This document shows positions 961 to 15,394 of a stretch of DNA of 16,259 bases, in pieces. How positions within the stretch are numbered: the stretch's first letter is position 1; each line of letters starts with the position of its first letter. The translations under genes and the position numbers were made by a program. Below the pieces are notes generated by a model. The model was not told where the DNA came from and searched no databases. It saw only the letters and a list, made by a program, of their open reading frames with translations. The stretch is from Chloroflexota bacterium (GTDB taxonomy: Bacteria > Chloroflexota > Ktedonobacteria > Ktedonobacterales > Ktedonobacteraceae): NCBI GenBank assembly GCA_005881495.1, contig VBHI01000360.1:1-16259 (forward strand). Direction: 5' to 3'.

Positions 961-1033
961 GACTCTTCTTCACAATTGAACCTTGCCTGAGCAGGATAAT
1001 TCGAGAGCCAGGCAGGAATAGGAGATTGATATT

Positions 1034-2926
1034 TTGAGTATTGAACAAATTGTTGGGAGGACGCTTGGGGAGTACCAGATTGAGCGGCTGCTTGGTCAGG
1101 GACAGCTAGGCGCTGTTTACCTGGGACAACAAAAGTCTGGGGGTCACGCTGTCACGATTACGACCTTCAACTTTCCCGCAGGTATTACGGCGCAGGCACA
1201 TGAAAGCTTTAGCGCGCGTTTTGCCCACGAAGGAGCCATTCTCACCAGGTTAGACCATCCCAATATCCTCCTCATTTATGCTTACGGTGAGCAGGCCGAC
1301 TATGCCTTCATGATAACATCCTTTGTAAAAGCGGCCTCGCTGTCCCAGGCGCTGAAACAACAGGGTCGATTTACACCTGAACAAACGCTCAGTGTTTTAA
1401 AACAAGTAGCAGCGGCCCTGGATTATGCGCATGGATACGGTGTTGTACATGCTGTACTGAGCCTTGCAAATATTCTGGTGATCAACAAGCAACAGGTGCA
1501 AATAGCCGGTTTTGGGCTGAAGACGCTACTTGATCTACACGGAAATACGCAGCTCAAGCAACTGCCAGCGCACCTGCTTAACGCGAATGGGAAATTTCTT
1601 GGCAGCCCTGAATCTATCTCGCCGGAACGAGTATTGGGCTTACCAGCAGATGCTCGCTCCGACATTTATTCATTGGGCACTATGCTTTTTGAGCTGTTAT
1701 GTGGTACACCACCCTTTAGCGGCACAGACTCCCTCGAAATGGCGTTGAAACGTATAGAACAGCCTGCTCCCTCTCTGCACATGCGTTATCCCGAGATCCC
1801 AGAAACCCTCGCCCTGGTAGTCAATAAAGCGCTGGAACGCGACCCCTCACAGCGCTATCGACACGCTGGAGAACTAGCAACAGCTTTTGAACATGCCTTA
1901 CAAGTTGCAACACCGGAGCAGGCTCCATCCGCGAGGACCCGCCAGGTGAGACAGGATACGCAAATCACGATGCCACCAACTGTCAACTGGTTCGACGAGG
2001 ACATGCTGACCTCAAGAAAGTGGCAGGCCATGCAGCCCGCTGATGGCGGTAACGGATCTGTGGTAGCGCCTCAAGCGATGCCAGAAAAACCTATCCAGCC
2101 AACACAAGCAGATGTCATACCGGGCGTTGATCCTTTTGCCCTGTGGTCCGCCACTTCAGCAAAGACAGAGGCGCTTACACCTGGAATGTTCACCCGGCGT
2201 CCAACCGTCAGCCTTTCAGCCGGCAGAAGGCGTCCGCGCCCCCGACCAGCTCAAGCCGATCGCAGACGCCTGGTCAAGCTTATTGTCGTTGGCACTGTTA
2301 CAGCAGGTGTGATTGGTGCAGGAGGCATAAGCTTTGCACACTTCATGCAAAGTGTGAAGCAGGTACAATCCAGGGTCGCTAATGCACCAGCCACCGGGCC
2401 AACGCAGACGACACAGGGAAATGCACCAGCCACTGGCCCTACACAGGGTACTCAGAATCAGAATACGCCGACAGCAGGCAAGACCCCAACTGCGCAGCCT
2501 TCGTCAACGCAAAAGGCACAGCCGTCACCGACTGCGCATGCAACCCAGCAGCCAACACCAAAACCGACACAGCCGCCACCCACGCCCACGCCAAAACCGC
2601 CCTCACATACGGGCACAGTGATTGGCTATACGAGCCAGGCAACGAATAGCGCCAAAAGTTTTTCGAATCCAGCCGATGGGCAGGGAAGCCTGCTTATTCG
2701 CCTCCCAAACGGGAATTTCGTTGCCTGTGAAAGAGCTTGCACACATGTAGGAGTGGCTGTCAATTATGATTCCGGCAGCCACCAGCTTCTCTGCCCAGCG
2801 CATGGCGCAATTTTTGACCCCCCGAATGGCTTCAGCCATGTGTCAGGGTCAGGCCCATCAGGTCTTAACCCCTTGCCTCAAGTCTCCATTCGCGTGAATG
2901 GCGACGGTACGATCACAACCGGGTAG
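1034..2926 (+). CDS. Membrane-anchored pseudokinase with C-terminal Rieske [2Fe-2S] domain
   Basis: 630 residues, TTG start, with AGGAGA eight bases upstream (1020-1025). Residues 14-290 have the eukaryotic-type Ser/Thr kinase fold: glycine loop GQGQLGAVY (21-29), helix-C Glu67, an APE-like SPE (196-198), Asp210. All three catalytic signatures are lost. The VAIK lysine is Thr41 (HAVTI), HRD reads HAV (139-141) with Lys replaced by Ser143, and DFG reads GFG (159-161). Asn146 remains. A linker follows (290-397), then a basic stretch (398-412), one membrane helix (about 413-437), a Pro/Thr/Gln-rich spacer (450-525), and a Rieske domain (about 526-630). The Rieske ligands are CTH (Cys569, His571) and CPAH (Cys587, His590), with a GPSG..PLP proline loop. 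The positive charges before the helix place the kinase fold inside and the iron-sulfur domain outside. It is probably a redox sensor or scaffold rather than an active kinase. The gene is followed by a terminator. Confidence 0.9.
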   Translation: MSIEQIVGRTLGEYQIERLLGQGQLGAVYLGQQKSGGHAVTITTFNFPAGITAQAHESFSARFAHEGAILTRLDHPNILLIYAYGEQADYAFMITSFVKAASLSQALKQQGRFTPEQTLSVLKQVAAALDYAHGYGVVHAVLSLANILVINKQQVQIAGFGLKTLLDLHGNTQLKQLPAHLLNANGKFLGSPESISPERVLGLPADARSDIYSLGTMLFELLCGTPPFSGTDSLEMALKRIEQPAPSLHMRYPEIPETLALVVNKALERDPSQRYRHAGELATAFEHALQVATPEQAPSARTRQVRQDTQITMPPTVNWFDEDMLTSRKWQAMQPADGGNGSVVAPQAMPEKPIQPTQADVIPGVDPFALWSATSAKTEALTPGMFTRRPTVSLSAGRRRPRPRPAQADRRRLVKLIVVGTVTAGVIGAGGISFAHFMQSVKQVQSRVANAPATGPTQTTQGNAPATGPTQGTQNQNTPTAGKTPTAQPSSTQKAQPSPTAHATQQPTPKPTQPPPTPTPKPPSHTGTVIGYTSQATNSAKSFSNPADGQGSLLIRLPNGNFVACERACTHVGVAVNYDSGSHQLLCPAHGAIFDPPNGFSHVSGSGPSGLNPLPQVSIRVNGDGTITTG

Positions 2927-3093: not shown

Positions 3094-5241
3094 ATGGCAA
3101 GTGGGAACAACTCCATCAGTCAACACCTACAGGCTGGCGTAACATCGCAGAAGTCCAAAGAACTTTACCTGAGTGAAGGCATCACCTTTTACAAGGCCAG
3201 GCAGTATCAATTGGCTCTGACAGCCTGCGAGCAAGCTATACAATTCGACAGCAATTATGCAAGAGCATTCCATGGTAAGGGACTCGCGCTCATTGGACTT
3301 GGGCGTTATGCAGAAGCCATACTAGCTTACCAGCAGAGTATCCGCTTGCATCCACAGAACTCCAGGGGTTATGCCGATCTAGGATGCGTCCTCTACGAAC
3401 TGAAACGCTTTGAAGAAGCGGGTAAGGCGTACCGGCAAGCTATTCAGTACGATCCCAGTATTACCCAGGCTTATATTGATTTGACAAAAGCGCTCGTCGA
3501 TAAAGCGCATAAACTCTACGAGCGTGTAAAATTGGACCTATTCTATGAAGAAGCGATTTTTGCCTTTCAACAAGCCATTTTGTTTAACCCGAGCTATCCG
3601 GACGCTTATCTGCAACTTGGAATGGCCCTCTATGAACGCGGGCAGTACAAAGACTCAGGAAATGCTTATGAGCAAGCCGTTCAATATGACTCCACCTATG
3701 CTGAAATGTACACTCAGCAGTTGAGAGCGCTCACTGATAAAGGGAAGTCTCTTTATGACCAGGGTCGCAATCGTGAGGCCAGGGCGGCATATACTCACGC
3801 TATACTTTTTGATAGTAATGATGCACAAGCATATGTTGGGCAGGCAAAGGCTCTCTACAAATTGGGACAGTATTACGAGGCAGGGAGTGCCTTCAGGCAA
3901 GCTATTGCACTTGAACCTGATAATACCCGAACTTACACCGAACTGATAACAACGCTCGTCGAAAAAGGAAATGGGTTCTACGAACTGGGAAAATACCAGG
4001 ACGCGCTTGTGAGCTACCAACAAACGATTCTCTTTGCTCCTGAAGATGCTCAAGCTTACAATTGCCAGGCGAAAGCTTACTACTCACTGGAGAACTACCT
4101 TGAGGCAGGAACTGCTTACAGAAAGGCTGTTCAACTTGATCCAAATTATAGTGATGCTTATGTCGAACATATAGATGCTCTTTTTAACCAGGGAGAAAAG
4201 CTTTACGAACTTAGGCAATATAGAGGTGCGCTAACACTCTATCGTCGAACAATACAGTTTGATCCCGACAATGCCCAGGCTTATGCAGGTCAAGGAAACT
4301 CTTTGTTCGAACTTGAACGTTACGAAGCAGCAGGAGCCGCCTATAGAAAAGTGATCGAGCTTGATGCTGGATATCAGCAAATTTACGCGAAGCAGAGAGA
4401 CATTCTTTTCGAGCAAGTAAAAACTCTCAACCAACAAAGATACTATCTTGAGGCCGAGGCTTTGAATAAGCGTGCACTTCAATTCGACCCCTCTATTGCT
4501 CAATCTTTTATGAATCAAGCAGAGAAACTCGTCAACCACGGAAAAAATCTCTGCATACAACGGCAATTCCAGGAAGCTCTATCTTTCTTTGAACAGGCGA
4601 TTCTCCTTTTGCCCAACAATGCGAGCGTATATGTCGAGCTCGGAAAAGCGCATTTTGAACTTGAATGCTACGAAGAGGCGCGAGATGCTTATAAAAAGGC
4701 GATGCAATTGGACATTAGCTGGACCCAGGCTCATGTCGATCAGTGGAAAACTCTTGTTAACAAAGGAAAAGCGCTTGAAGAACGGGAACATTTTGAAGAC
4801 GCCCAAATTGTCTACAAAAAGGCAATACTGTTTCATCCAATGGATGCCAATGCTCATATGTCTTTAGGCAAAGTTCTTTATGAGCTTGGTCGCTATGAAG
4901 AGTCTCGTGACATTTACCGTCAAGCTATATACCTTGATTCGAGTAAATCCCAGGCTTATCAAGAGCAGCGGGAAGCTCTTCTTAACAAAGGGAAGGCTCT
5001 CTATGAACTTGGGCGCTTTGAAGATGCTCTTGCAGCCTATGAACAATCAATCAGCTTTGACCCTGATAATAAAGATGCTTATGTCGAAAAAGGTAGAACT
5101 TTAGATAAGCTTCTACGCTATAAAGAAGCTCGCGCTGCATTTCGAGCAGCTTCTAACGTAGCAAGTCCGTCACAATCAATACAATCCATCGAACAAAAAA
5201 CAACCTGGCTTTATAAAGAGCCATTCCGTTATGATTTATAA
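3094..5241 (+). CDS. Large tetratricopeptide-repeat (TPR) protein
   Basis: 715 residues, ATG start preceded by a run of seven G (3080-3086) that supplies the ribosome-binding site. Nearly the whole protein (about 24-690) is made of some 18 TPR units with the usual pattern, for example ALYKLGQYYEAGSAFRQAI, and ending DPDNAQAY or similar. There is no signal peptide, membrane helix or catalytic domain, so it is probably a cytoplasmic scaffold. After three ordinary 34-residue units, repeats mostly alternate between 34 residues and 41 residues. The longer ones carry a seven-residue extension such as IDALFNQ or REALLNK before the first helix, giving a 75-residue super-repeat (for example starting near 246, 321 and 396, and again near 511 and 586). 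The register breaks once, where two long units are adjacent (about 430-511). Its partner is unknown. Its stop overlaps the end of the convergent sugar-kinase gene. Confidence 0.9.
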   Translation: MASGNNSISQHLQAGVTSQKSKELYLSEGITFYKARQYQLALTACEQAIQFDSNYARAFHGKGLALIGLGRYAEAILAYQQSIRLHPQNSRGYADLGCVLYELKRFEEAGKAYRQAIQYDPSITQAYIDLTKALVDKAHKLYERVKLDLFYEEAIFAFQQAILFNPSYPDAYLQLGMALYERGQYKDSGNAYEQAVQYDSTYAEMYTQQLRALTDKGKSLYDQGRNREARAAYTHAILFDSNDAQAYVGQAKALYKLGQYYEAGSAFRQAIALEPDNTRTYTELITTLVEKGNGFYELGKYQDALVSYQQTILFAPEDAQAYNCQAKAYYSLENYLEAGTAYRKAVQLDPNYSDAYVEHIDALFNQGEKLYELRQYRGALTLYRRTIQFDPDNAQAYAGQGNSLFELERYEAAGAAYRKVIELDAGYQQIYAKQRDILFEQVKTLNQQRYYLEAEALNKRALQFDPSIAQSFMNQAEKLVNHGKNLCIQRQFQEALSFFEQAILLLPNNASVYVELGKAHFELECYEEARDAYKKAMQLDISWTQAHVDQWKTLVNKGKALEEREHFEDAQIVYKKAILFHPMDANAHMSLGKVLYELGRYEESRDIYRQAIYLDSSKSQAYQEQREALLNKGKALYELGRFEDALAAYEQSISFDPDNKDAYVEKGRTLDKLLRYKEARAAFRAASNVASPSQSIQSIEQKTTWLYKEPFRYDL

Positions 5242-6258
5242 ATCGATGGCGGTCTTAAAGAGTGCCGAGCCTGGAATCGTGGGGATCAGTCTTTCCAGGA
5301 GATCGTCATCGACGACAATTTTTGCTGCCTCGAGCGCGGTGAAAAGCACGCCGATGATAGGCTCAAAACGGCAGCGCGCCGGTCGTACTGCGGGACAGGT
5401 TGTGCGCACGCAATCGACAATAGTGTCTGCCAGCAGTTGAGAAGGATGGCGAAAGACGCCGCCGGCTAAGACTAGCGTAAAGGCCGATCCCTCAATGCCC
5501 ACTTTTCGCGCGGCGGCGAGCGCATATTTCCCGAGCATGACACCGTGTTCCTGAACGATACGTATCGCCACGCTGTCACCCGAAAGGGCCTCATCCAGGA
5601 GCAGCGGCGTCAAACGACCGACGTGGCGTGGGTGACTCTGCACCCGGCTGGTAAAAAGATGGAGCAACTCCTCGACTGTATCAAGGTGAAAAAAATCGAG
5701 GAAACACGCGGTCAGAGACGTCGGCGGCTCGATACCCAGCGCTGAACGGTAGACAACATCCAGCGCATTCTGGGCGAGGTGAGTACTGCCCTGTGCCTGG
5801 TCTTGCCAGAAGCTTGAATGCCAGGTTCGCCCATCTGGCGCGCGCGCGCCGGTGGCAGCTCCTGTCCCACAGACAACAGAGACACCGGTGTCGTCAGATG
5901 ATCCCGCGTGCAAGACACCCATGGCATCGTTTTGCACATAGATCGTACGTCCATAGCCACGTTCCTCCATCGCGGCCTGGATATAGGCAAAATCTTCCGG
6001 CCAGTCCGCACCGGCCATACTGAAAACGGAAGTGACAAGATCAGAGGGCCGGATTTGCGCGGCATCCAGGGCGCTGGTGACGGCGTACTCGACGTTGGCG
6101 ATGGCCGCGCTGGCGGAGTCCCGCCACTCTGTGCTGGTAGGAGCATTGTAGATGTCGCCACATCCACCACGTCCTGCTCCTAGTATGGCGCCATCCAGAG
6201 AGGCAACCAGTGCGATCGTTTTCGTATTCCCGCCATCAACGCCCAAAACATAATGCAT
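5236..6258 (-). CDS. BadF/BadG/BcrA/BcrD-family ATPase, probable N-acetylglucosamine or sugar kinase
   Basis: 340 residues from ATG 6258, chosen because AGGAGG (6268-6273) lies nine bases upstream and the protein then begins with its first beta strand, MHYVLGVDGGNTKTIAL. An upstream in-frame start at 6339 would add 27 residues encoded by repeat DNA. The ASKHA fold is clear: phosphate-1 DGGNTKT (8-14), NDAMGV (110-115) with candidate catalytic Asp111, phosphate-2 CGTGAATG (130-137), and adenosine-binding LAGGV (264-268). In carbohydrate loci this family usually phosphorylates GlcNAc or related sugars with ATP in the cytoplasm. Here it is the last gene of an ABC-transporter/GH4 locus, so it probably acts on the imported sugar, either a released monosaccharide or the intact disaccharide. 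It follows the GH4 gene by 127 bases containing repeats, and its stop overlaps the TPR gene by 6 bp. Confidence 0.85.
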   Translation of the reverse strand: MHYVLGVDGGNTKTIALVASLDGAILGAGRGGCGDIYNAPTSTEWRDSASAAIANVEYAVTSALDAAQIRPSDLVTSVFSMAGADWPEDFAYIQAAMEERGYGRTIYVQNDAMGVLHAGSSDDTGVSVVCGTGAATGARAPDGRTWHSSFWQDQAQGSTHLAQNALDVVYRSALGIEPPTSLTACFLDFFHLDTVEELLHLFTSRVQSHPRHVGRLTPLLLDEALSGDSVAIRIVQEHGVMLGKYALAAARKVGIEGSAFTLVLAGGVFRHPSQLLADTIVDCVRTTCPAVRPARCRFEPIIGVLFTALEAAKIVVDDDLLERLIPTIPGSALFKTAIDL

Positions 6259-6282
6259 ATTACACTGCCTCCTACCAGGCAC

Positions 6283-6352
6283 TGTTTCCTGGGTGATCAC
6301 ATGTTTCCTGGGTGACCATATGTTTCCTGGGTGACCCAAGGGTCACCCCTAC
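6283..6352. repeat. Three 19-bp tandem repeats ending in a perfect palindrome
   Basis: Units begin at 6283, 6302 and 6321, each starting TGTTTCCTGGGTGA and then varying (TCACA, CCATA, CCCAA). The third unit runs into GGGTGACCC-AA-GGGTCACCC (6329-6348), a perfect 9-bp inverted repeat with a 2-base loop, closed by CCCCTACTA. The block lies between the GH4 and sugar-kinase genes and would be transcribed within the operon. The palindrome is a REP-like element; the partial units upstream look like slippage copies of its left arm. Confidence 0.75.
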
Positions 6353-6385
6353 TACGAATGCAGCTGTGAAGCCAATTTATAGAGA

Positions 6386-7684
6386 TTAGTGGAGTAAGCG
6401 TTCAGGTAGATAGTGCCGGTGCGCGGCGGCCATCTCGTCATACATTGCTTCAGCTTTGTAGAGTGAAAAAACTAACGGATGACTTGTCAGCGCGCGGATG
6501 GCATCCCTGCGATTGCCACTCCAGGCAGCCTCAGCAGCCAGAGCCTGGTATTCGCCCAGCATTTGCACCAGCCCACGTACTTGTCGCGGTAGATTGCCCT
6601 GGACAAGAGGGGCAACACCGTTGCGGTCCACATATCCAATGGTTTCGACGACCAGGTCGTCCGGAAAGTCCGCGATAGAGCCACAGTTGGGAACATTGAC
6701 ATACCAGACCTCTCCGCGGTCATTGTAGATAGCGTCCATTACATCAATAGCCAGCTCTAGCTCGTGGATGCCTCCACGTGAGCGATCAGGGTCGAGTTCG
6801 GGAACGTCGCGCGCGGCCTGTTCGCGATAATGTGCCCAGTAATCTGGCACGCTGGCCATGATATCTTGCGCGCGGGTTGTTGGTTTTGCTTGAAGCTCAG
6901 CCAGTATCTCATCTTTGAAATAGTAGTACTGGAAATAGTCACTCGGCAGCGAGTCCATGAAACATGCCAGTTCGATCATGCGTAGTTCGTCGGGCGGGAG
7001 GGTACCATCACGGCTTATTCTCTCGTATCCCTCATGTAAGAGAGGCATGAAGTCCTGTCCATCGTAGAGATGGCGAATGGTCCAGGAGCCATGATTGAGG
7101 CCAATCGAGACCGCGTCCAGCTTATCGGGATCGAGCCCGATCAACTCCACATACTCGCGGTTGGTCACCATTGGTCCCTCACAGAAGGAAACGGCAGGAA
7201 TGGAGGTGTGGTGGGTAACAGCCTCCGAGACGATATTCACCGGGTTGGTGTAGTTAAAGAGGCGAGCATTGGGACAGACTGCTTCCATATCTTCAATGAT
7301 ACTTTTCGTTACGTGGATAGAGCGCAGCGCCATGAAGAAACCGCCTGGCCCCTGCGTTTCCTGACCGATTACACCGTGTTTGAGCGGAATGCTTTCGTCA
7401 AGATAACGGGCCTCAAAGCCTCCGGGACGAAAACTCGTCAAGACGGCGTCACATCCTTGCAGGCCAGCGCGCCGGTTCGTGGTGGTCGTGAAGGTGAGAT
7501 CCAGACCCCTGGCATTGGCCATCTTCTGGGCGATGCTTTTGACAATACCCAGGCGTTCTTCATTGAGGTCGATGAGAACGACCTCGGAGCCGTTGAAATT
7601 TTCACCCTGGTGGACAAATGAGGCCATTGTACCGGCGGCGCGGGTACTGCCACCGCCAATATAGGCCAGTTTAATGCGTGCCAT
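6386..7684 (-). CDS. Glycoside hydrolase family 4 enzyme, probable 6-phospho-beta-glucosidase
   Basis: 432 residues, the usual GH4 length. ATG with AAGGAG 11 bases upstream (7696-7701). The N-terminus IKLAYIGGGSTRAAG (4-18) is the NAD+-binding Rossmann loop. Other GH4 blocks are VLIDLNEERL (36-45), SFRPGG (84-89), GQETQGPGGF (107-116), NYTNPVNI (144-151), and the metal ligands Cys168 (SFCEGP) and His198 (GLNHGSW). GH4 enzymes cleave glycosides in the cytoplasm by an NAD+- and Mn2+-dependent oxidation-elimination mechanism, often with 6-phosphorylated substrates. The Cys block looks more like the beta-glucosidase branch (C-N-x-P) than the alpha-galactosidase/alpha-glucosidase branch (CHS), so a beta-linked substrate is favoured but not proven. 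It starts 18 bases after the ATPase gene and is clearly in the same operon. Confidence 0.87.
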   Translation of the reverse strand: MARIKLAYIGGGSTRAAGTMASFVHQGENFNGSEVVLIDLNEERLGIVKSIAQKMANARGLDLTFTTTTNRRAGLQGCDAVLTSFRPGGFEARYLDESIPLKHGVIGQETQGPGGFFMALRSIHVTKSIIEDMEAVCPNARLFNYTNPVNIVSEAVTHHTSIPAVSFCEGPMVTNREYVELIGLDPDKLDAVSIGLNHGSWTIRHLYDGQDFMPLLHEGYERISRDGTLPPDELRMIELACFMDSLPSDYFQYYYFKDEILAELQAKPTTRAQDIMASVPDYWAHYREQAARDVPELDPDRSRGGIHELELAIDVMDAIYNDRGEVWYVNVPNCGSIADFPDDLVVETIGYVDRNGVAPLVQGNLPRQVRGLVQMLGEYQALAAEAAWSGNRRDAIRALTSHPLVFSLYKAEAMYDEMAAAHRHYLPERLLH

Positions 7685-7702
7685 GCTTTGCTATGCTCCT
7701 TG

Positions 7703-8884
7703 TTATGCCGGTTCTATCGTATGTGTAGATATGTCAGTACTCTGCATGCAGGCAGAAGAATCTGCCTGCCGCTCCTTACCGCTGCCATACAGGAAACAAT
7801 GAGTCCAGTGACCTCCACCCAGTTCGGTGCGTCCGGGAAAACGCTGGCTACAGACCGGCATAGCGTGTGGACAGCGTGGGTGGAAACGGCACCCGGTGGG
7901 CGGGTTAATTAGGCTGGGAATCTCTCCCCGCGCTGGCAGACTTTGCGTGCTCTTGCCATCCTCTCCGATACGATCCGGGTCCGGCGCCGCAGAAATAAGC
8001 AGTTGCGTATAAGGATGTTTGGGCCGCTGGATGACCTCCTCGCTAGGGCCCCCCTCAACCGTCTGTCCGGCATACATGACCAGCGTATCCTCGGCGAAGT
8101 AGCGCGCGCTTGCTATATCGTGAGTGATAAAAAGTAAAGCGAGATGTTCCTCGTCTTTGAGGCGCAAGAGCAGGTTCAGGACATCCAGGCGTATGGAGAC
8201 ATCGAGCATAGAAACAGGCTCGTCGGCCAGCAGTATCTCTGGACGTGCGGCCAGTGCACGAGCGATAGCAACGCGTTGCCGTTGCCCGCCGCTTAACTGG
8301 TGTGGATACTTCTGGATAAACTGCTCCGCCGGGCTAAGGCTTACTCGATTGAGTAGAGCAAGTATCTGCTCTCCCTCTTCTCTTACAGAGTGCGCATACC
8401 CATGCAACCGTAATGGACGGCTCAAGTGGTAGCGCACATCGTGCACAGGGTTGAGCGACGAGAAAGGATCCTGGAACACTAACTCTACATGGTGGCGGTA
8501 GGAGCGTAACGAGGCTCCTCTGCCAACCTTTTCCGATTCGCCACGAAAGAGGATCTTGCCCGCAGTAGGCTCATAGAGGCGCGCCAGCATACGTGCTACG
8601 GTGGTTTTCCCACTGCCGCTCTCTCCCACGAGAGCAAGGGCGCGGCCGGGATAGAGCGCCAGCGAAGTGTCTTCTACGGCGTGTACTACCTTTTTTGGTC
8701 CGAAGAGTTTGAGCGAACGCAAGGGAAAGTACTTGCGCAAGTGTTGAGCCTCCAGAACAGCGGGTGTAGTAGGAAGCTCACCCATTTCACTTATTCCACT
8801 TGTCACAGCACCTTCTATGGTATCTTTGGCAGTTTCATTGAGTGCGACAAATGGGTAGTCGGCTCCCAAATGTTCGGTGCTCAT
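7703..8884 (-). CDS. ABC transporter ATP-binding protein, oligopeptide/oligosaccharide type (DppF/OppF-like)
   Basis: 393 residues. Walker A GESGSGKT (87-94), Q-loop [11 protein letters not shown] (Gln138), signature LSGGQRQR (197-204), Walker B ILLADE (217-222) and H-loop ITHD (His255) are all intact, so this is a functional ATPase. The C-terminal oligo_HPY region with [15 protein letters not shown] marks the peptide/nickel subfamily. In Thermotogota and Chloroflexota such transporters often carry beta-glucosides or other oligosaccharides, which suits the GH4 enzyme and kinase downstream. About 40 residues precede the ABC domain, longer than usual. Its ATG overlaps the stop of the preceding ATPase gene as ATGA (8881-8884), so translation is probably coupled. 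It should pair with that subunit beneath the two permeases. Confidence 0.92.
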
Positions 8885-10092
8885 TGCACTTTCCTCGTTC
8901 CTTGCATTACCTCATATGTTGCATCATATTTTGCCGCAAAATCGTGATTAGTTGGTACCCCTGCTGCATTGAACCTGGGGTCATAGAGATGACAGGCAAC
9001 GAGCTGCCCAGGCGTCCCAGGCGTCCCAGGCGTGGAAGGCAAGAGGGTTGGCAAATTGGTATTGCATATTTCAAAGGCCATCGGACAACGGGGATGAAAA
9101 GCACAGCCCGGCGGTATGTCCCGCAGATCGGGAGGAGAACCAGGAATACCCGTCATCCTGCGGCGCGGCCCGCGCAGCGTTGGAAACGAATTTAAGAGGC
9201 CGTAGCTGTATGGATGACGGGGCTGTTGACGCAATTCCCGGCATGTTGCCATCTCGACGATACGTCCCGCGTACATAATCGCAATCTTGTCAGCTAATTC
9301 GAGCAGCAGCGAGAGGTCATGCGTAATGAAAATGACGGAGAAGTTCAGTTTCTCCCGCAGCTCCATAATCTCCATCAGAATTTCACGCTGCACCACGACA
9401 TCGAGCGCGGTTGTTGGCTCATCCATGATGATCAGTTCAGGCAAGAGCGCCAGGGCAATGGCAATGATTGCACGCTGGCGCATGCCGCCGCTCAGTTCGT
9501 GTGGATAGCTGCGAATGCGGTCAGGGGCAATACCAACAAGACGCAGCAGTTCAATAGCCCGTCTACGGCGTGAGTCTGGTCCCATATGAGGTTGATGGGT
9601 ACGTAAGACATCAGTAATCTGCGTACCAATATTGATTACAGGATTGAGCGCGTTCATCGCGCTTTGGAAAACAATCGAAAGTTCATTCCAGCGAAATTCA
9701 CGCAGTTCCGCGGGGTTAAATTGAAGAATGTCCACTGCTTCTGTTGCCTCACCGGGTACTGCATTCTTAAGCGTAGTGGTAATTCTTGCATTTGCCCTCG
9801 AAGACCCTTTCAATTTCCCTTTATCCTCTTCATCGCCAGGGCGAGGATAATACAACAGTTTTCCCGCGATGATCTCAGCCGGTGGACGGAGCAGGCGGGT
9901 AATGGCATAGGCCAGGGTAGACTTGCCGCTGCCACTCTCGCCGGCAAGGCCGAGGATTTGCCCTCGTTCCAGGGTAATGCTTACATCAGTCAGGGCATGG
10001 ACGGTCCCGTTAGCGGCGTAATAGTCCACGCTGATATTCCTGATATCTAGCAATGTATTGCCTGGGTTGAGGTTTAATTCCTTAGTATTCAT
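8881..10092 (-). CDS. ABC transporter ATP-binding protein, oligopeptide/oligosaccharide type (DppD/OppD-like)
   Basis: 403 residues. Walker A GESGSGKS (51-58), Q-loop [11 protein letters not shown] (Gln143), signature LSGGMRQR (200-207), Walker B IIMDE (221-225), H-loop ITHD (His258). An oligo_HPY tail contains [15 protein letters not shown]. Two oddities are visible. About 40 extra residues (roughly 82-120, acidic then basic then Thr/Ala-rich) are inserted between Walker A and the Q-loop. [10 protein letters not shown] run encoded by three perfect 9-bp repeats interrupts the C-terminal cysteine region. The motifs are complete, so it should be active. ATGA overlaps join it to the permease gene before it (10089-10092) and the ATPase gene after it (8881-8884). 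Confidence 0.92.
9007..9033. repeat. Three perfect 9-bp tandem repeats inside an ATPase gene
   Basis: CCCAGGCGT occurs three times without a mismatch (9007-9015, 9016-9024, 9025-9033). On the coding (minus) strand it reads as Thr-Pro-Gly repeats between the cysteine motifs of the C-terminal oligo_HPY region. Because the unit is three codons, gain or loss of copies keeps the frame. Confidence 0.85.
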
Positions 10093-11021
10093 GATGCAGC
10101 TGCCTTCCTGGACTTACTGAGTTTAGCATGCTTTGACTTTGGCTCGGTTCGCAGACGAGGGTTTGCTACCTCGTCAATACCAAAATTGATGAAAGCCAAT
10201 CCTGCGCCCAATACAGCGATGCACAGGCCTGGTGGCAAGAACCACCACCATGCGCCTAATAGGAGCGCATCATTATTACCCGCCCAGTAAAGCATTGTCC
10301 CCCAACTTGTACTTGTAATATCGCCCAGGCCCAGAAATTCTAATCCCGTCTCGGCTAGAATGGCATAGATCACTGTACCAAGAAATTCCGCGGCCACAAT
10401 CGAGGTCTCATTGGGCAGGATTTCGAAGAAGATGATACGCAGCGTGGACTCCCCGTTGGCCTTCGCTGCTTCTACATAATCCCGGTTGCGCATCGAGAGT
10501 GTTTGCGCACGCAGCACTCGTGCCCCCCACGACCAGCCGGTCACTACCAACACAATCACGATAGTCAATGGCCCCCTGTATGCAGCAAAGGCGGCAAGGA
10601 GGATTGCCAGGGGCAGCGTAGGCAGCACCAGGAAGACGTTGGTTAACAACGAAAGCACTTCATCGGCCAACCCGCCAAAGTATCCAGAGGCCAGGCCAAT
10701 AATGATCGAGATGATCATTGTCAGTGTGCCGATGAGAAAGCCCATAGTGAGCGAAAAGCGCGTACCATATACAAGCTGGGTCAGAACATCCTGACCTGTT
10801 TGCGTTGTGCCCAACCAGTGAGCGGGTGATGGAGGCTGTAGTATATCCGCACTGAAAGCATTAGGATCCCCAGGAAAGAATACCGGCCCGAAGATTGCGA
10901 TCAGTACAAAGAAGGTCAGGATAAGAAGACCAAAACTCACCTTGCGGTTTTGCGTAACTAATCGCCACGTATCGCGTAAGCGCAACCTTGCAGTTGAAGA
11001 CATGGTTGAAGACATAATCAC
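10089..11021 (-). CDS. ABC transporter permease, DppC/OppC-like
   Basis: 310 residues with an N-terminal membrane helix (FGLLILTFFVLIAIFGPVFF, about 30-49), then GTTQTGQDVL (about 71-80), typical of DppC-type permeases. The BPD_transp_1 domain has about five more helices and the EAA loop EAAKANGESTLRIIFFEILP, which docks on the ATPase. The start is GTG at 11021; AGGAGGGAG, which lies inside the last codons of the preceding permease gene, is 10-13 bases upstream. An ATG six bases further in (11015) is an alternative. The gap to the preceding gene is 6 bp, and the stop overlaps the next gene as ATGA. It forms the membrane channel with the DppB-like subunit. Confidence 0.92.
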   Translation of the reverse strand: MIMSSTMSSTARLRLRDTWRLVTQNRKVSFGLLILTFFVLIAIFGPVFFPGDPNAFSADILQPPSPAHWLGTTQTGQDVLTQLVYGTRFSLTMGFLIGTLTMIISIIIGLASGYFGGLADEVLSLLTNVFLVLPTLPLAILLAAFAAYRGPLTIVIVLVVTGWSWGARVLRAQTLSMRNRDYVEAAKANGESTLRIIFFEILPNETSIVAAEFLGTVIYAILAETGLEFLGLGDITSTSWGTMLYWAGNNDALLLGAWWWFLPPGLCIAVLGAGLAFINFGIDEVANPRLRTEPKSKHAKLSKSRKAAAS

Positions 11022-11027
11022 GGTTTG

Positions 11028-12011
11028 CTAACTCCCTCCTAAGCGTACTCGCGGATCGAGCACCACGTACATCAGGTCAGCGAGGAAATTTGCACCCAAC
11101 ACCGCCACGGTAATCACCAGGAAGATGCCCTGTAACAAGGCGTAATCAAGGTTTTCAACCGCCTGTAGCAAGGTAAAGCCGATACCGGGATATGAAAAGA
11201 TGATTTCAGTGAGTAATGAGCCGCTCACCACAAAGCCTAAAGAGAGCGCGAAGGCAGTTATATTCGGCAAAATAGCGTTGCGTGCTCCATACGTATACAT
11301 AACTTTCCAGGAAGTAAGACCTTTCGCCTCGGCCATCAATACGTAATCCTCTGAAAGCGTGGTAATCATCGCGTTACGCATACCGAGCATCCACCCGGCA
11401 ATAGAGCCGATAACGATGGTAATAGCCGGCAGAATGGCATATTGTACTGCACTTAAGAGGAAGTCAAGGTTCCAGCCCGGGACGGTATTGTCTGTATCAT
11501 ACCCTCCATGGATAGGAAACCAGTTAAGCTGCGAACCAAAGATATAAAGCAGAACTAATGCCAGCCAGAAGTAGGGTATCGCAGAGAGGAACGTGAAAAA
11601 AGGGGTGAATACAGCGTCCGAGAAACCGCGCCGCCAGACGACGATGATACCCAGCACTGTTCCAACAATAAAGCTAATTATGAGCGCAACGCCAACCAGT
11701 ACGAGCGTCCAAGGGAGATCCTGCCAGATCACCACAGATACAGGTGTTGGAAGATACGTAATTGAAATCCCAAGGTTGCCATGCAACAGGTTGTTAATAT
11801 ACTGTACATACTGCGACCATAAAGGATCGTGATTCACTCCAAGCGAGATCTCTAACGCATGTTGTGCCTGAGGAGAGAGTTTTCCGCGCATGCGGGCCAT
11901 GAGTGCTTGTGCCGGGTTACCCGGAGACAGATGCGGTATGATGAAATTCAGCGTAACCGAAGCCCAGAGCGCAACGAGATAAAAACCTATACGACGTATC
12001 AGGTGACGCAT
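11028..12011 (-). CDS. ABC transporter permease, DppB/OppB-like
   Basis: 327 residues from ATG 12011, the usual length for this family, beginning MRHLIRRIGFYLVALWASVT with a first helix directly after basic residues. AAGGAG lies six bases upstream. An in-frame ATG at 12017 abuts that ribosome-binding site, and one at 12125 would add 38 residues encoded by a hairpin, so both were set aside. Features include the short conserved LSPGNPAQAL segment after helix 1, a long extracytoplasmic loop with LGISIT, about five further helices, and the EAA loop AEAKGLTSWKVMYTYGARNAI. The ending RLGGS is typical, and its codons carry the ribosome-binding site of the next permease gene. A 16-bp hairpin separates it from the binding-protein gene upstream. 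Confidence 0.92.
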   Translation of the reverse strand: MRHLIRRIGFYLVALWASVTLNFIIPHLSPGNPAQALMARMRGKLSPQAQHALEISLGVNHDPLWSQYVQYINNLLHGNLGISITYLPTPVSVVIWQDLPWTLVLVGVALIISFIVGTVLGIIVVWRRGFSDAVFTPFFTFLSAIPYFWLALVLLYIFGSQLNWFPIHGGYDTDNTVPGWNLDFLLSAVQYAILPAITIVIGSIAGWMLGMRNAMITTLSEDYVLMAEAKGLTSWKVMYTYGARNAILPNITAFALSLGFVVSGSLLTEIIFSYPGIGFTLLQAVENLDYALLQGIFLVITVAVLGANFLADLMYVVLDPRVRLGGS

Positions 12012-12056
12012 GCACATCTCCTTCCAGAGAGTCGTTGTAATGACTACCGGGGTCGC

Positions 12057-12098
12057 CTGGGAGCAACAGGGGGCATATAGCTCCCCTGTTGCTCCCAG
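12057..12098 (-). promoter_or_regulatory. Strong intercistronic hairpin between binding-protein and permease genes
   Basis: A perfect 16-bp inverted repeat, CTGGGAGCAACAGGGG (12057-12072) and CCCCTGTTGCTCCCAG (12083-12098), with a 10-base loop. It lies after the stop of the binding-protein gene and before the permease start. In the direction of transcription it is not followed by a T-tract, so it is more likely an mRNA-stabilising or processing stem, or partial attenuator, than a full terminator. Such stems often keep the binding protein in excess over the membrane subunits. It could also be a REP-type repeat. Confidence 0.65.
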
Positions 12099-12145
12099 AA
12101 GTCCGCGCCTGGCACCGCCATCCAATCTGCAGCCAGACGGATCAA

Positions 12146-13834
12146 CTAATCGGCTGGATGGAGGTTCAAAACAACATATTCAATATCTGGATACACTGCT
12201 GTTCCAGGTGCTGCATACGGGTGCTGCTGATCTGGCCAACCAACAAATTTGGATGTGTTGTACTGATACCAGTATGGTTCATTCGTCAATGGAATGCTTG
12301 GCAACTGCTCAACCATAATCTTCTGGATACCCATGATCACTTGCTTCTGCACAGTAGGATCAGTAGAAGTAGCATACTGATTCAATAACGCATCTGTGTT
12401 CGGGTCCATCCAACGTTCATAGTTAGAGCTTGCGGGCTGACCAATAGGAGCGCTATTCGTGCTTCTCAATAGTGCGTCGTACAAGTAGTAAGGCGTTGGG
12501 CCGGGATTGGTCCAGAGCATCGCCATGTCATAGTTACCATTCTGCAGAGCATTATAATAGGCGTCAAAGGCAATCACATTGACGTTGACTTTGATACCAA
12601 CCGCTTGCAGCTCTTGTGCCATTAACTGGCAATCGGTAATCCAGTCGGTATAACCACTGACAACGTTGAGGTTGAACGACAGCTTCTTGCCATTTTTATC
12701 GGCATAGATGCCATCAGATCCTTTTGTAAAGCCAGCCCCCTCCAGCAACTGTTGCGACTTAGCGGTGTCTACCGAGAACGTCAGATTAGCGTACTCAGGG
12801 GCCATGTAGTCTTTATTATAGGGCAGCAGGCCTGTAGGGCTAGCAGGGGGTTCGTAGCCGCTTTCCCCCAATTGGTTGAGCTTATTGCGGTCGATGGCAG
12901 AACTAATCGCCTGTCGAACCGGCAAAAGGTTGAATGGGTATTTAGTAAGGGGAAGGAAGAGCATAACGATGTCACTGGCGGGGAACCAGTAGTGGTTATG
13001 CTGCGGATTGAGATTGATGTACGTTTTCTGGATGTTCGGTATGTAGAGGTTTGTCCAGTCAATCTGACCTTTCTGGAGTGCCAATTCGGCACTCGTGTTT
13101 GAATTGAACGAGGGAATCTTCAGCTGACTCACTTCTGGCTTGCCGGGTTGCCAGTATTTCGGGTTCTTGCTCAAGACGATAAGTTGCGGGGTGAAGGACT
13201 TAACGATATAAGGGCCCGTCCCGACCGGGTTAGGATCGGCATACTGGGAGCCGTCACCCTGCACCGAGGACCATACATGTTTGGGAAGGATATACGTTTG
13301 CCCACCAAGGTACCACAGAAGAGGATAAAAGGGCTTGTTGAGCGATACCACTACCGTATTCGCATCGGGTGCGCTAACGTCCTTAATAAAAGGTGTTATG
13401 CTGCTGACATCCATTGCAGGATATTTCTTGAGCAAGCCAAGGGTAAATATCACATCACCACTGGTGAATGGCTGACCATCTGACCACTGCACGCCCTGTC
13501 GCAAGTGAAACGTAATGCTTGTCGCATCGCTCGAGCGATCGTAGCTCGAAGCCAACCACGGTTTCACACTGCCATCAAGCCGGTTGAAATAAAGCAAGGT
13601 TTCATAGATCAAACCGGGCGTTCCACTGATAACGCTGGGATTATACGGGTTGAAGTTTCTGGGATAGTCACCACCTGCATTACCCAGGAGTGTCAGAGAG
13701 CTGTTCTGGTTTGCCTTATGAGTAGCAGTATTGGTCCCGCCACAGGCAGCCAGTACCATTGTTAAGATCATCAGAAATGACAGGAGTAGCATTCCTTTGT
13801 TTGCCTTATTGGCGAATAGCGGGTTGAGAGTCAT
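12146..13834 (-). CDS. Extracellular solute-binding lipoprotein, family 5 (DppA/OppA-type)
   Basis: 562 residues. ATG with AGGAGG six bases upstream. A lipoprotein signal peptide is clear: basic start (Lys10, Lys13), hydrophobic MLLLSFLMILTMVLAAC, lipobox LAAC with lipidated Cys31, then a Gly/Thr/Asn-rich tether. The mature part shows SBP_bac_5 features, such as NPSVISGTPGLIYETLLYFN near the start, TSITFHLRQGVQWSDGQPFTSGDVIFTL-type block (written here only in part: LRQGVQWSDGQPFTSGDV) and VRQAISSAIDRN. It captures the ligand outside the membrane and delivers it to the DppB/DppC-like channel. Family 5 proteins bind peptides, nickel or oligosaccharides; the GH4 and kinase genes favour an oligosaccharide. 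It lies first in the transport part of the locus, 171 bases after the regulator gene. Confidence 0.92.
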   Translation of the reverse strand: MTLNPLFANKANKGMLLLSFLMILTMVLAACGGTNTATHKANQNSSLTLLGNAGGDYPRNFNPYNPSVISGTPGLIYETLLYFNRLDGSVKPWLASSYDRSSDATSITFHLRQGVQWSDGQPFTSGDVIFTLGLLKKYPAMDVSSITPFIKDVSAPDANTVVVSLNKPFYPLLWYLGGQTYILPKHVWSSVQGDGSQYADPNPVGTGPYIVKSFTPQLIVLSKNPKYWQPGKPEVSQLKIPSFNSNTSAELALQKGQIDWTNLYIPNIQKTYINLNPQHNHYWFPASDIVMLFLPLTKYPFNLLPVRQAISSAIDRNKLNQLGESGYEPPASPTGLLPYNKDYMAPEYANLTFSVDTAKSQQLLEGAGFTKGSDGIYADKNGKKLSFNLNVVSGYTDWITDCQLMAQELQAVGIKVNVNVIAFDAYYNALQNGNYDMAMLWTNPGPTPYYLYDALLRSTNSAPIGQPASSNYERWMDPNTDALLNQYATSTDPTVQKQVIMGIQKIMVEQLPSIPLTNEPYWYQYNTSKFVGWPDQQHPYAAPGTAVYPDIEYVVLNLHPAD

Positions 13835-13858
13835 CGAAAACCTCCTAACACTGGATGA

Positions 13859-13879
13859 ATGGATCTATCGTTGATCCAT
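13859..13879. promoter_or_regulatory. Inverted repeat in the leader of the binding-protein gene
   Basis: ATGGATC (13859-13865) and GATCCAT (13873-13879) form a perfect 7-bp inverted repeat with a 7-base loop, ending 25 bases upstream of the binding-protein start codon and just ahead of its ribosome-binding site. It could be an operator or a leader hairpin. It does not resemble the palindrome upstream of the regulator gene. No convincing -10/-35 pair was found in 13835-14005. Confidence 0.35.
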
Positions 13880-13921
13880 GAGATGAACCAGATCAAAGCG
13901 CCATGTGTTCGTAGCGGGGTT

Positions 13922-13954
13922 CTAAGGAGTTTCCCATGTGAAAGTAGCCCTTAG
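13922..13954. promoter_or_regulatory. Nested hairpin between regulator and binding-protein genes
   Basis: CTAAGG (13922-13927) pairs with CCTTAG (13949-13954), and inside this TTTC pairs with GAAA around a 6-base loop. It is about 50 bases after the regulator stop codon. Without a T-tract it is at best a weak terminator or attenuator. Confidence 0.3.
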
Positions 13955-14005
13955 CGTACCCCTCTATCTCACCTTTCCCTCAGAAAAGATGGAGAAGACG
14001 ACTGC

Positions 14006-15394
14006 TTACGAGAGCACATCTTCACCCGAAGATGTTGAGATAGTGATTTGATAATTTGCTCCACACGATTCACGCACTACGAGGCTGGTAGGCAATAGTA
14101 TTCGCGTTGGCAGAGGGTGTTGCGCGTCCCTTGTACCTTCTCCACCTGTTGTATGCCAAGTTCTGGCAGGATACCTTCCTTCCTGGGTTAGCCTTTGCTG
14201 AGAGGAGACCATGGATAACAATAGCTCCATACCGCTTTTCCCCATCTCGTAAACCGGCTGCCTGATGGTTGTCAGCGCAGGTCGGACATGAGCGGAGGGA
14301 GCATCATCGTCAAAGCCTACGAGCGCAATATCCTGCGGGATGGAGATCCCATGCTCTTCAGCCGCCGATAAAACACCGTAGGCCATCTGGTCAGTGGCAG
14401 CAAAGATGGCGGTAGGTCGTTTTTCGAGTGGGAGTTCAAATAATTTTTTGGCACAGGAGCGCCCAGTAGGTGGCATGAAGTCGCCCTCCAACACCAGCTC
14501 AGGATCGGGGGTAATTCCTTCGTCGAGTAAGGCCTGGCGATAACCGTTATAGCGGTCATGTGAGGCAAGATACTCGTTTGGGCCCTGGATATGTGCGATG
14601 CGGCGGTGACCAAGTTTGATCAGGTGACGAACAGCCATATAGGCTCCGGCGGTATTGTCCGTCCCTACCCACGGAGTGGTCTGTTCCAATTGATCATCAA
14701 TGATCACAACGGGAAATCCCTGCTGGTAGAGTCGCGTCAGTTGTTGTGACGCGCGAGCAGGAAAGACAGCCAGCAGGCCAGCAGTGAGTTGAGTCGCCAG
14801 GAGACGGCTAATGACTTCGCTACGGTCTCTTTCGAGATCTTCATCTTTGACACTGTAGAGCACTAACTCATACGGTGTGTTCTCTATAGCATCAGCAATT
14901 CCACGTAAAAGATCGGGGATAAGCGGCCAGGTGAGCGAGGGAATGAGCATGCCGATAAGCCGGTTGCGTCCACCAGCCAGCCCTGAGGCGGTGATACTCG
15001 GCACAAAGCTTTGCATAATCTGACGAACACGAGCATAACTGGGTGGGTTCCATCCCTGCTCTCGTGCAATCGCCGTTACTTGACGATGAATAGCGGCGAC
15101 AGAACGCGGAGGGGTTTGTAAGACCAGCTCCTCCACCAGTGTGATGGCATCCGGAGGCAAGCGACGCGACGTTCCTTTGTCGGAACGTTCTTCGTCTGCC
15201 AAACCAGCGATGCCCTTTTCACGATAGCGCTTGACCCACCGCTGGACCGTACTGGCAGGAACGTTGTGGATACGCGCCACATGAGCCTGGCTGACGCCAT
15301 CTTCCAGAGCCGAACGAATGATCGTAAAGCGGGTGTATGCTTGTGTTCTTTGGTCCTTGGAAAGGGCCGCAAGTGGGACAGGTTGTTCCGTCAT
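14006..15394 (-). CDS. LacI-type sensor regulator with transposase-like N-terminal DNA-binding region
   Basis: 462 residues, ATG with GGGAG ten bases upstream. Residues about 145-445 are a LacI/GalR-type periplasmic-binding-like sensor: IGMLIPSLTWPLIPDLLRGI, VVIIDD (229-234), VGTDNTAGAYMAVRHLIKLG, HRRIAHIQGP, PTAIFAATDQMAYGVL, IALVGFDDD (356-363), LTTIRQP, and LPTSLVVRESC (434-444). The usual N-terminal 50-residue LacI helix-turn-helix and hinge are absent. Instead, residues 12-130 show two modules: a homeodomain-like HTH (DGVSQAHVARIHNVPASTVQRW, here split as DGVSQAHVARIHNVP and STVQRWVKRYREKGIAGL), then RSDKGTSRRL and a second winged-helix-like part (SVAAIHRQVTAIAREQG, PSYARVRQIM). That arrangement is typical of transposase N-termini of the Mu/IS481 type. 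About 25 extra residues precede the C-terminal LPTSLVVRESC. It probably binds a sugar and controls the adjacent transport locus and itself. Confidence 0.88.
   Translation of the reverse strand: MTEQPVPLAALSKDQRTQAYTRFTIIRSALEDGVSQAHVARIHNVPASTVQRWVKRYREKGIAGLADEERSDKGTSRRLPPDAITLVEELVLQTPPRSVAAIHRQVTAIAREQGWNPPSYARVRQIMQSFVPSITASGLAGGRNRLIGMLIPSLTWPLIPDLLRGIADAIENTPYELVLYSVKDEDLERDRSEVISRLLATQLTAGLLAVFPARASQQLTRLYQQGFPVVIIDDQLEQTTPWVGTDNTAGAYMAVRHLIKLGHRRIAHIQGPNEYLASHDRYNGYRQALLDEGITPDPELVLEGDFMPPTGRSCAKKLFELPLEKRPTAIFAATDQMAYGVLSAAEEHGISIPQDIALVGFDDDAPSAHVRPALTTIRQPVYEMGKSGMELLLSMVSSQQRLTQEGRYPARTWHTTGGEGTRDAQHPLPTRILLPTSLVVRESCGANYQITISTSSGEDVLS

Follow-up and report, generated by a model that had tools for sequence, protein, structure and literature searches.

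The gene and its product

The stretch of DNA considered here (the window, 16,259 nucleotides, forward strand of contig VBHI01000360.1, assembly GCA_005881495.1) comes from a Chloroflexota bacterium of the family Ktedonobacteraceae. Its positions 1034 to 2926 carry a gene whose product joins a kinase fold lacking its catalytic residues, through a single membrane helix, to a Rieske iron-sulfur domain. The protein belongs to a conserved membrane-protein family of the Ktedonobacteria, a class of soil bacteria, with a dead kinase inside the cell and a Rieske domain outside it, and it has the look of an undescribed type of either redox receptor or anchored electron carrier. The initial annotation, made from the sequence alone, had proposed this layout at 1034..2926, and the open frame, the Pfam matches and the hydropathy profile bear it out. 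The parts are as follows, pLDDT being the AlphaFold2 confidence measure (predicted local distance difference test):

1020..1024, + strand: AGGAG, likely ribosome-binding site by sequence, 9 nt 5′ of the TTG
1034..2926, + strand: whole gene (pseudokinase, membrane helix, Rieske domain), one open frame of 630 amino acids with a TTG start
1073..1861, + strand: kinase-fold domain, residues 14-276 (Pfam PF00069, Pkinase, 1.5e-37; Foldseek matches PknA/PknB/Stk1)
2354..2599, + strand: presumed extracytoplasmic linker rich in Thr, Pro and Gln, about residues 441-522 (from the sequence; pLDDT below 50 over 369-510)
2612..2923, + strand: Rieske domain, residues 527-630 (Pfam PF00355 over residues 542-599, 6.3e-6)

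Both domain matches exceed the curated Pfam cut-off, and the order along the protein is kinase fold, cytoplasmic linker, one membrane helix, Thr/Pro/Gln-rich linker and Rieske domain. In the full-length AlphaFold2 model, scored in blocks of ten residues, the kinase part lies mostly at pLDDT 77-97 (64 in the first block, 50-60 about the activation loop), residues 294-367 and 369-510 fall below 50, and the Rieske blocks range from 51 to 87; modelled alone, from 14 sequences, the Rieske domain reaches a mean pLDDT of 90. A Foldseek search with the kinase model leads to PknA, PknB and Stk1. The models thus support both folds that had been read from the sequence. This layout is solid, whereas the cluster, the export and the direction of any signal are what we infer from sequence.

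A search with the Rieske part gave 467 candidates, 395 of them relatives at E ≤1e-3. Residue counts below are taken from the 120 relatives listed, the window's own protein included, and those for the linker region from the 113 of these that have at least 500 amino acids.

A kinase fold without its catalytic residues

The residues of an active Ser/Thr kinase, namely the lysine of strand beta-3, the aspartate of the HRD motif and that of the DFG motif, are replaced in the window protein by Thr43, Val141 and Gly159. Alignment to PknA places them as follows:

1160..1162, + strand: Thr43 at the beta-3 (VAIK) lysine position (Thr in 103, Ser in 4, Ile in 3, gap in 10 of 120)
1448..1456, + strand: His139-Ala140-Val141 at the HRD position (position 141 can be read in 111 of 120 and is never Asp)
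1508..1516, + strand: Gly159-Phe160-Gly161 at the DFG position (Gly in 111, Ala in 1, Asn in 1, gap in 7 of 120)

The changes from HRD to HAV and from DFG to GFG had been recognised in the initial annotation and stand in the alignment. Its choice of Thr41 as the lost lysine was mistaken, since that residue aligns with the alanine of the PknA VAVK and not with its lysine. It had also described the glycine loop, the helix-C glutamate and the SPE motif as intact. All three are present in the window (GQGQLG, Glu66, SPE), but the first two are not family-wide: the third loop glycine is Ser in 59 of the listed proteins, Gly in 49 and a gap in 12, and Val stands in place of Glu66 in 29 of the 110 that can be read there. 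Asn146 is kept (Asn in 103 of 120, gap in 11), and between GFG (159-161) and SPE (196-198) the alignment holds an insertion relative to PknA and no deletion. A kinase fold with its catalytic motifs lost across a conserved family is what defines a bacterial pseudokinase, and this is what the window protein presents.

A family of the Ktedonobacteria

Kinase and Rieske parts occur together in 114 of the 120 listed relatives, mostly in the same order, and for six Rieske alone is listed; the four that bear organism names are all Ktedonobacteraceae. When representative genomes were scanned, 31 loci came up but no close copy of the window gene. Ktedonobacteria account for 27 of the loci, with Ktedonobacter racemifer, Dictyobacter, Tengunoibacter, Thermogemmatispora and Ktedonosporobacter among the names. 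Class-wide, a related Rieske domain of some kind is found in 47/47 Ktedonobacteria genomes; in 24 of these the frame that holds it is 490 amino acids or longer, and every one of the 24 has a kinase fold in at least one such frame. Across the phylum, a scan of 400 genomes that scored at most 11 candidates in each gave a Rieske match at 1e-25 in 58, of which 16 lie outside the class list. Five of these 16 were examined, and the six places read there encode DoxX/DoxD-Rieske proteins that lack a kinase, as judged by Pfam in five cases and by eye in one.

The genome loci provide 45 fusions, the window included and one kept of each duplicate. The HRD aspartate is present in 0/44 readable, the DFG aspartate in 0/44 and the lysine in 0/41 readable. 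Kinases without a Rieske domain in the fetched loci (22 rows minus four fragments of fusions of the window's kind) are intact in all three motifs in 18 of 18, a narrow control because a single orthologous neighbour gene supplies 16 of the 18 and a Phycisphaeraceae locus one more. In the listed relatives the same catalytic residues are missing and the Rieske ligands remain, the outcome by which the initial annotation would recognise a conserved family. No report of a kinase-Rieske fusion was found among the open-licence papers listed (10 of 42, 10 of 398 and 8 of 23 matches in three of the searches), judged from titles and abstract openings, and the words "Rieske" and "Chloroflexi" do not occur in the main text of the review PMC12599244.

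In the kinase tree, from which the partial kinases L052, L023 and L065 were left out, fusions of the window's kind (type 1) form one clade of 42 rows with support 99. It also includes L095, a pseudokinase fused to a VIT1-like membrane domain, and L099, a short pseudokinase that has no membrane helix. A second family (type 2) forms a separate clade with support 100, the surrounding branches of this quick tree being weak (70). Its alignment comprises 121 rows, that is 120 listed of 213 matches plus the query, of which 114 are kinase-bearing, two DoxX proteins being excluded. The lysine position holds Arg in 103/114 and Lys in none of 109 readable; HRD has become HRN in most, the catalytic Asp is found in 0/114, the DFG Asp is kept in 79/114, and the Rieske ligands stand in all 121 rows. 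Since type 2 branches separately, these sequences suggest that the kinase-Rieske layout may have arisen twice. The opposite pattern, intact homologues with a recent loss only in the window, was not found among the sequences examined: there is no intact kinase-Rieske homologue among the 44 readable genome fusions or the 114 kinase-bearing type-2 rows.

Might such a fold still be an enzyme, working by nucleotide transfer or by phosphorylation independent of the lysine? The fold itself and Asn146 are kept, as is the DFG aspartate in those 79 type-2 proteins, and SelO is reported in passages of a review as an AMP-transferring pseudokinase (PMC12599244). Yet the lysine, the catalytic Asp and the metal-binding Asp are all absent in type 1, and the loop glycine and helix-C glutamate vary, so that a residual enzyme seems very improbable.

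Selection has kept the dead kinase part in shape. The ratio of nonsynonymous to synonymous substitution rates (dN/dS) across it lies at 0.03-0.24 when related fusions are compared in 16 pairs, dS being saturated in some and none of the pairs involving the window's lineage. With that lineage outside the pairs, the values support the earlier argument for selection rather than decay. Recent decay of a gene of the window's type is ruled out by the losses shared among relatives together with these ratios. In the loci of two Dictyobacter genomes (L015, 9938-12156; L022, 10249-12025), kinase and Rieske parts are encoded in separate frames that overlap slightly, which could be a frameshift, a sequencing error or a split gene. 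They are what could be cited for a decaying gene or an assembly chimera; against 395 relatives, the fusion frame in 24 of 47 genomes and purifying selection, this explanation is hardly credible.

The Rieske domain

The ligand pattern CxHx(n)CxxH and the Rieske fold are both found in the window protein, and the four ligands named at the outset, Cys569, His571, Cys587 and His590, proved invariant:

2738..2746, + strand: first ligand pair, Cys569 and His571 (120 of 120)
2792..2803, + strand: second ligand pair, Cys587 and His590 (120 of 120)

Compared with solved Rieske proteins, the domain model reaches a query TM-score of 0.58-0.79 among the first 20 matches, and its closest solved relatives are the electron-transfer proteins AioB, bc1 and b6f. 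High-potential Rieske proteins (bc1/b6f) carry a disulfide Cys pair and a Ser/Tyr pair close to the cluster. The cluster loops of the window, CTHVGV and CPAHGAIFD, are without the disulfide cysteines and without the Ser/Tyr pair of the bc1/b6f type. Four residues N-terminal to the first ligand, Cys565 (2726-2728) is kept in at least 90% of 47 proteins of the window's lineage, and the position is Tyr in 12 of the 13 other type-1 proteins compared; the cysteine could form a dimer disulfide or influence the cluster.

The protein might be an anchored electron carrier, its Rieske domain moving electrons outside the membrane, for instance to or from a quinone, a DoxX/DoxD-like protein or a metal-reactive partner, and its pseudokinase acting only as anchor or assembly scaffold. 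The kinship with AioB, bc1 and b6f favours this, as does the union of related Rieske modules of the phylum with DoxX/DoxD, which belongs to the thiosulfate:quinone oxidoreductase family; the type-2 Rieske domain groups with these proteins in the Rieske tree. However, the loci show no conserved operon of redox enzymes; the conserved neighbours in the syntenic group are DUF1015, an FAD amine oxidase, a YbjN-like protein, an M29 peptidase and an active kinase. A pure anchor, moreover, would need neither a kinase fold held at dN/dS 0.03-0.24 nor conserved linker motifs, and a clade without His ligands persists (see below). This role is, on balance, somewhat unlikely.

A putative internal Tat signal

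Signals for twin-arginine translocation (Tat) differ from Sec signals in a less hydrophobic, glycine-rich and leucine-poor h-region, and Rieske proteins count among the usual substrates of Tat, most bacterial ones having a Tat-type anchor, according to PMC7317946. Two elements of the window protein are relevant here:

2261..2266, + strand: twin arginine (RR) Arg410-Arg411 within D-R-R-R-L-V-K, probable Tat recognition motif (RR in 120 of 120 listed; 100% of 113)
2279..2335, + strand: membrane helix of weak hydrophobicity, rich in glycine, at about residues 416-434; its position comes from hydropathy (mean Kyte-Doolittle 1.91) and not from the AlphaFold2 model

The model leaves 416-434 disordered and draws a low-confidence helix at 434-448 instead. 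Controls were 25 non-Rieske kinases from three of the same genomes, less the 7 without a segment above 1.6. Helix hydropathy is 2.03 in the 41 ligand-bearing genome fusions as against 2.50 in the remaining 18 transmembrane kinases (p 4e-7), glycine content 0.21 as against 0.08 (p 9e-8) and leucine content 0.17 as against 0.28, both p values being overstated because related rows were treated as independent. The twin arginine is present in 41/41 of these fusions, and in type 2 in all 110 rows of at least 440 amino acids, one of them a DoxX protein. On the C-terminal side of the helix, Lys442 is kept in 93% of 113 proteins; C-terminal positive charges are described for dual Sec/Tat Rieske proteins in passages of PMC5449189. 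A TatC gene was found in all six relatives' genomes searched.

Both features of a Tat substrate are therefore in place, an RR preceding the helix and an h-region of the kind described, and together the invariant RR and the weak glycine-rich helix form a probable internal Tat signal anchor, absent from the initial annotation and first recognised in this analysis. Outside the fusions, a Thermogemmatispora kinase that retains DFG (L112, 1420-3786, +) has a Tat-like SRRQALV, a weak helix (1.76) and DUF346 repeats, and from its sequence kinases other than the fusions may also use Tat.

A clade without histidine ligands

Ligands are kept in 41 of the 45 genome fusions. The other four, from K. racemifer and three relatives, join a pseudokinase to a "pseudo-Rieske" domain without His ligands:

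L032, 8342-10303, − strand
L037, 8850-10859, − strand
L082, 3958-6078, − strand
L083, 4354-6498, − strand

Their ligand positions read CTTD...CPPD, or CGAD in L037. In all four, both His ligands are lost, the RR is lost and the helix is hydrophobic (2.66-2.86, the maximum in ligand-bearing fusions being 2.56). As far as sequences can tell, this natural contrast, in which RR, weak helix and His ligands disappear together, is the strongest support for the putative Tat signal. The Rieske part of the clade has a dN/dS of 0.08-0.14 in three pairs and is thus not decaying. These proteins offer a natural control separating redox from scaffold roles.

They also bear on a receptor or scaffold without redox function, comparable to MviN or EssB/YukC, in which the Rieske fold would bind a surface or envelope ligand, any cluster would be structural and the pseudokinase would recruit partners. 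Pseudokinase and Rieske fold are both maintained in the ligandless clade at the dN/dS just given, and in another fusion of the same type of pseudokinase a VIT1-like membrane domain takes the place of Rieske. A merely structural use would, however, not be expected to keep all four ligands so strictly (120/120 and 121/121 rows, queries included, and 41/45 genome fusions) along with a Tat-like signal, and we consider this explanation unlikely.

Cytoplasmic linker motifs and a neighbouring kinase

Between kinase fold and membrane helix, the cytoplasmic linker carries two conserved motifs:

1961..1993, + strand: QITMPPTVNWF, residues 310-320 (Thr312, Pro314, Pro315, Thr316, Asn318 and Trp319 at 96-100% of 113)
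2129..2146, + strand: DPFALW, residues 366-371 (Asp366, Pro367, Phe368 and Trp371 at 96-98% of 113)

Both lie in a linker that is disordered in the AlphaFold2 model (pLDDT <50 at the first). A third motif, WQxxPP, mostly continued by [IV][VI]T, occurs in 24/38 type-1 fusions (22 by a stricter pattern) and 89/113 of the window's lineage. It is also present in the pseudokinase-VIT1 fusion, and is found in none of 24 other non-Rieske kinases and none of 7 type-2 fusions. That fusion (L095, 1468-3267, +), from Ktedonosporobacter rubrisoli, links a type-1 pseudokinase to a domain of the VIT1-like iron/manganese transporter family (Pfam 5.8e-9). L129 and L130 share the WQxxPPxVTG linker, followed by a VIT domain, and the frame concerned encodes no kinase.

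Of 28 sources parsed, 11 (from five named genera and one metagenome-assembled genome) encode an intact kinase downstream of the fusion, at a distance of 2.3-5.3 kb and on the same strand, and K. rubrisoli (L036) has a similar pair of pseudokinase-Rieske and kinase genes. The other neighbours in this syntenic group (DUF1015, FAD amine oxidase, YbjN-like protein, M29 peptidase) recur in 10-15 loci.

A possible redox receptor

The reading favoured here, held with confidence close to an even balance, is that of a single-pass receptor pseudokinase assembled through Tat, in which redox or cluster state would be reported by the Rieske ectodomain to a docking platform in the cytoplasm. Its main rivals are the anchored electron carrier and the receptor without redox function discussed above. 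The initial annotation had proposed both a transfer of redox state to a cytoplasmic scaffold and an anchored carrier; it is borne out in part, the conserved family and its selection being supported while these roles stay at the level of proposal. The Rieske domain would fold and take up its [2Fe-2S] cluster in the cytoplasm, after which Tat would move the loaded domain outward, the uncleaved signal helix leaving the pseudokinase inside. With the linker motifs TxPPTxNW, WQxxPPxVTG and DPFxxW, the pseudokinase would then provide a docking platform without catalysis, its likeliest clients being an active Ser/Thr kinase or the partners of such a kinase. The redox state of the extracytoplasmic cluster, or its mere presence, would alter the display of the platform or its dimerisation, and extracytoplasmic redox conditions would thereby be reported to cytoplasmic kinase signalling. 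If this is true, an extracytoplasmic Fe-S sensor is coupled to kinase-type signalling, and a receptor with a kinase fold as its cytoplasmic half has its ectodomain exported by Tat. More tentatively, the fusions can be pictured as a class of redox receptors with an internal Tat signal between a cytoplasmic pseudokinase and a folded, cofactor-loaded Rieske ectodomain, arisen twice from different kinase and Rieske lineages, in which cluster assembly and Tat export gate the display of the platform, one branch having later dropped both cluster and Tat signal while retaining the platform.

Several observations weigh against this picture. The window holds only a degenerate WQ motif (WQAMQP). An intact kinase neighbour is absent from its 16 kb and belongs to another type-1 subgroup; the window's neighbours differ, so the kinase link is known for that other subgroup only, and even there the two genes, 2.3-5.3 kb apart and separated by others, do not form an operon. 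An RR close to the helix is also found in 7 of the 18 control kinases, which makes RR alone a weak mark of Tat, and the control cut-off of 1.6 would also drop two ligand-bearing fusions (1.54 and 1.58). The four ligandless members represent one event, although three traits were lost together, and purifying selection on them implies that in this clade the layout serves a purpose without a cluster. As for two origins, the approximately unbiased test does not reject a tree that unites types 1 and 2 in a single clade (p-AU 0.248).

Comparison with known systems

The closest precedents for a dead-kinase platform would be MviN and EssB, by analogy and from what passages of PMC12599244 report of them. 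As described there, MviN (ActPs3 family) is a transmembrane protein with a catalytically dead Ser/Thr kinase fold in which, as in the window protein, Lys is replaced by Thr (VALT), and FhaA is recruited after PknB phosphorylates its C-terminal tail (PMC12599244). The M. tuberculosis protein bears a carbohydrate-binding domain, not Rieske (PMC12599244); the window protein differs from MviN in a GFG-SPE segment longer than that of PknA and in its Tat-like anchor. EssB/YukC is likewise a single-pass membrane pseudokinase used as a scaffold, but its activation loop is markedly reduced, it belongs to type VII secretion, and those passages mention no Fe-S domain (PMC12599244).

From the Rieske side, the bc1/b6f subunits and AioB share the CxH...CxxH ligands and the fold, whereas the cytoplasmic N-terminal part of the window protein is a kinase fold. 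Actinobacterial QcrA and the dual Sec/Tat proteins resemble it in an internal RR, a weak helix, a positive charge and the Rieske domain, according to parts of PMC5449189 and PMC7317946; ahead of the Tat helix, QcrA has membrane helices where the window protein has a soluble kinase fold. The Chloroflexota DoxX/DoxD-Rieske proteins share the module of helix and Rieske, with RR in most of those examined (L127 is without it), but have a membrane domain in place of the kinase and keep the disulfide cysteines (CTHxGC or CTHAAC ... CPCHG). They comprise L034, L067-L071, L085-L091 and L123-L127, the architecture being confirmed by Pfam in 18/18 tested (13 in the class, 5 outside), and L087 lies just below the Pfam TAT_signal cut-off.

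Other features of the window

Scans of the window with Rfam and for tRNA genes gave no matches. The gene is surrounded by the following:

1-260, − strand: start of a Pyr_redox_2-like oxidoreductase gene (2.9e-5, just below the Pfam cut-off), divergent and cut by the window edge
3094-5241, + strand: tetratricopeptide-repeat (TPR) protein of 715 amino acids, the next gene downstream on the same strand
5236-15394, − strand: oligopeptide-type ABC transporter operon with a GH4 glycosidase, a BadF-type ATPase and a LacI-like regulator

TPR-like proteins are also present in the loci of five relatives, the likeness being one of TPR similarity only. The DNA-binding part of the LacI-like regulator resembles helix-turn-helix domains of the transposase type.

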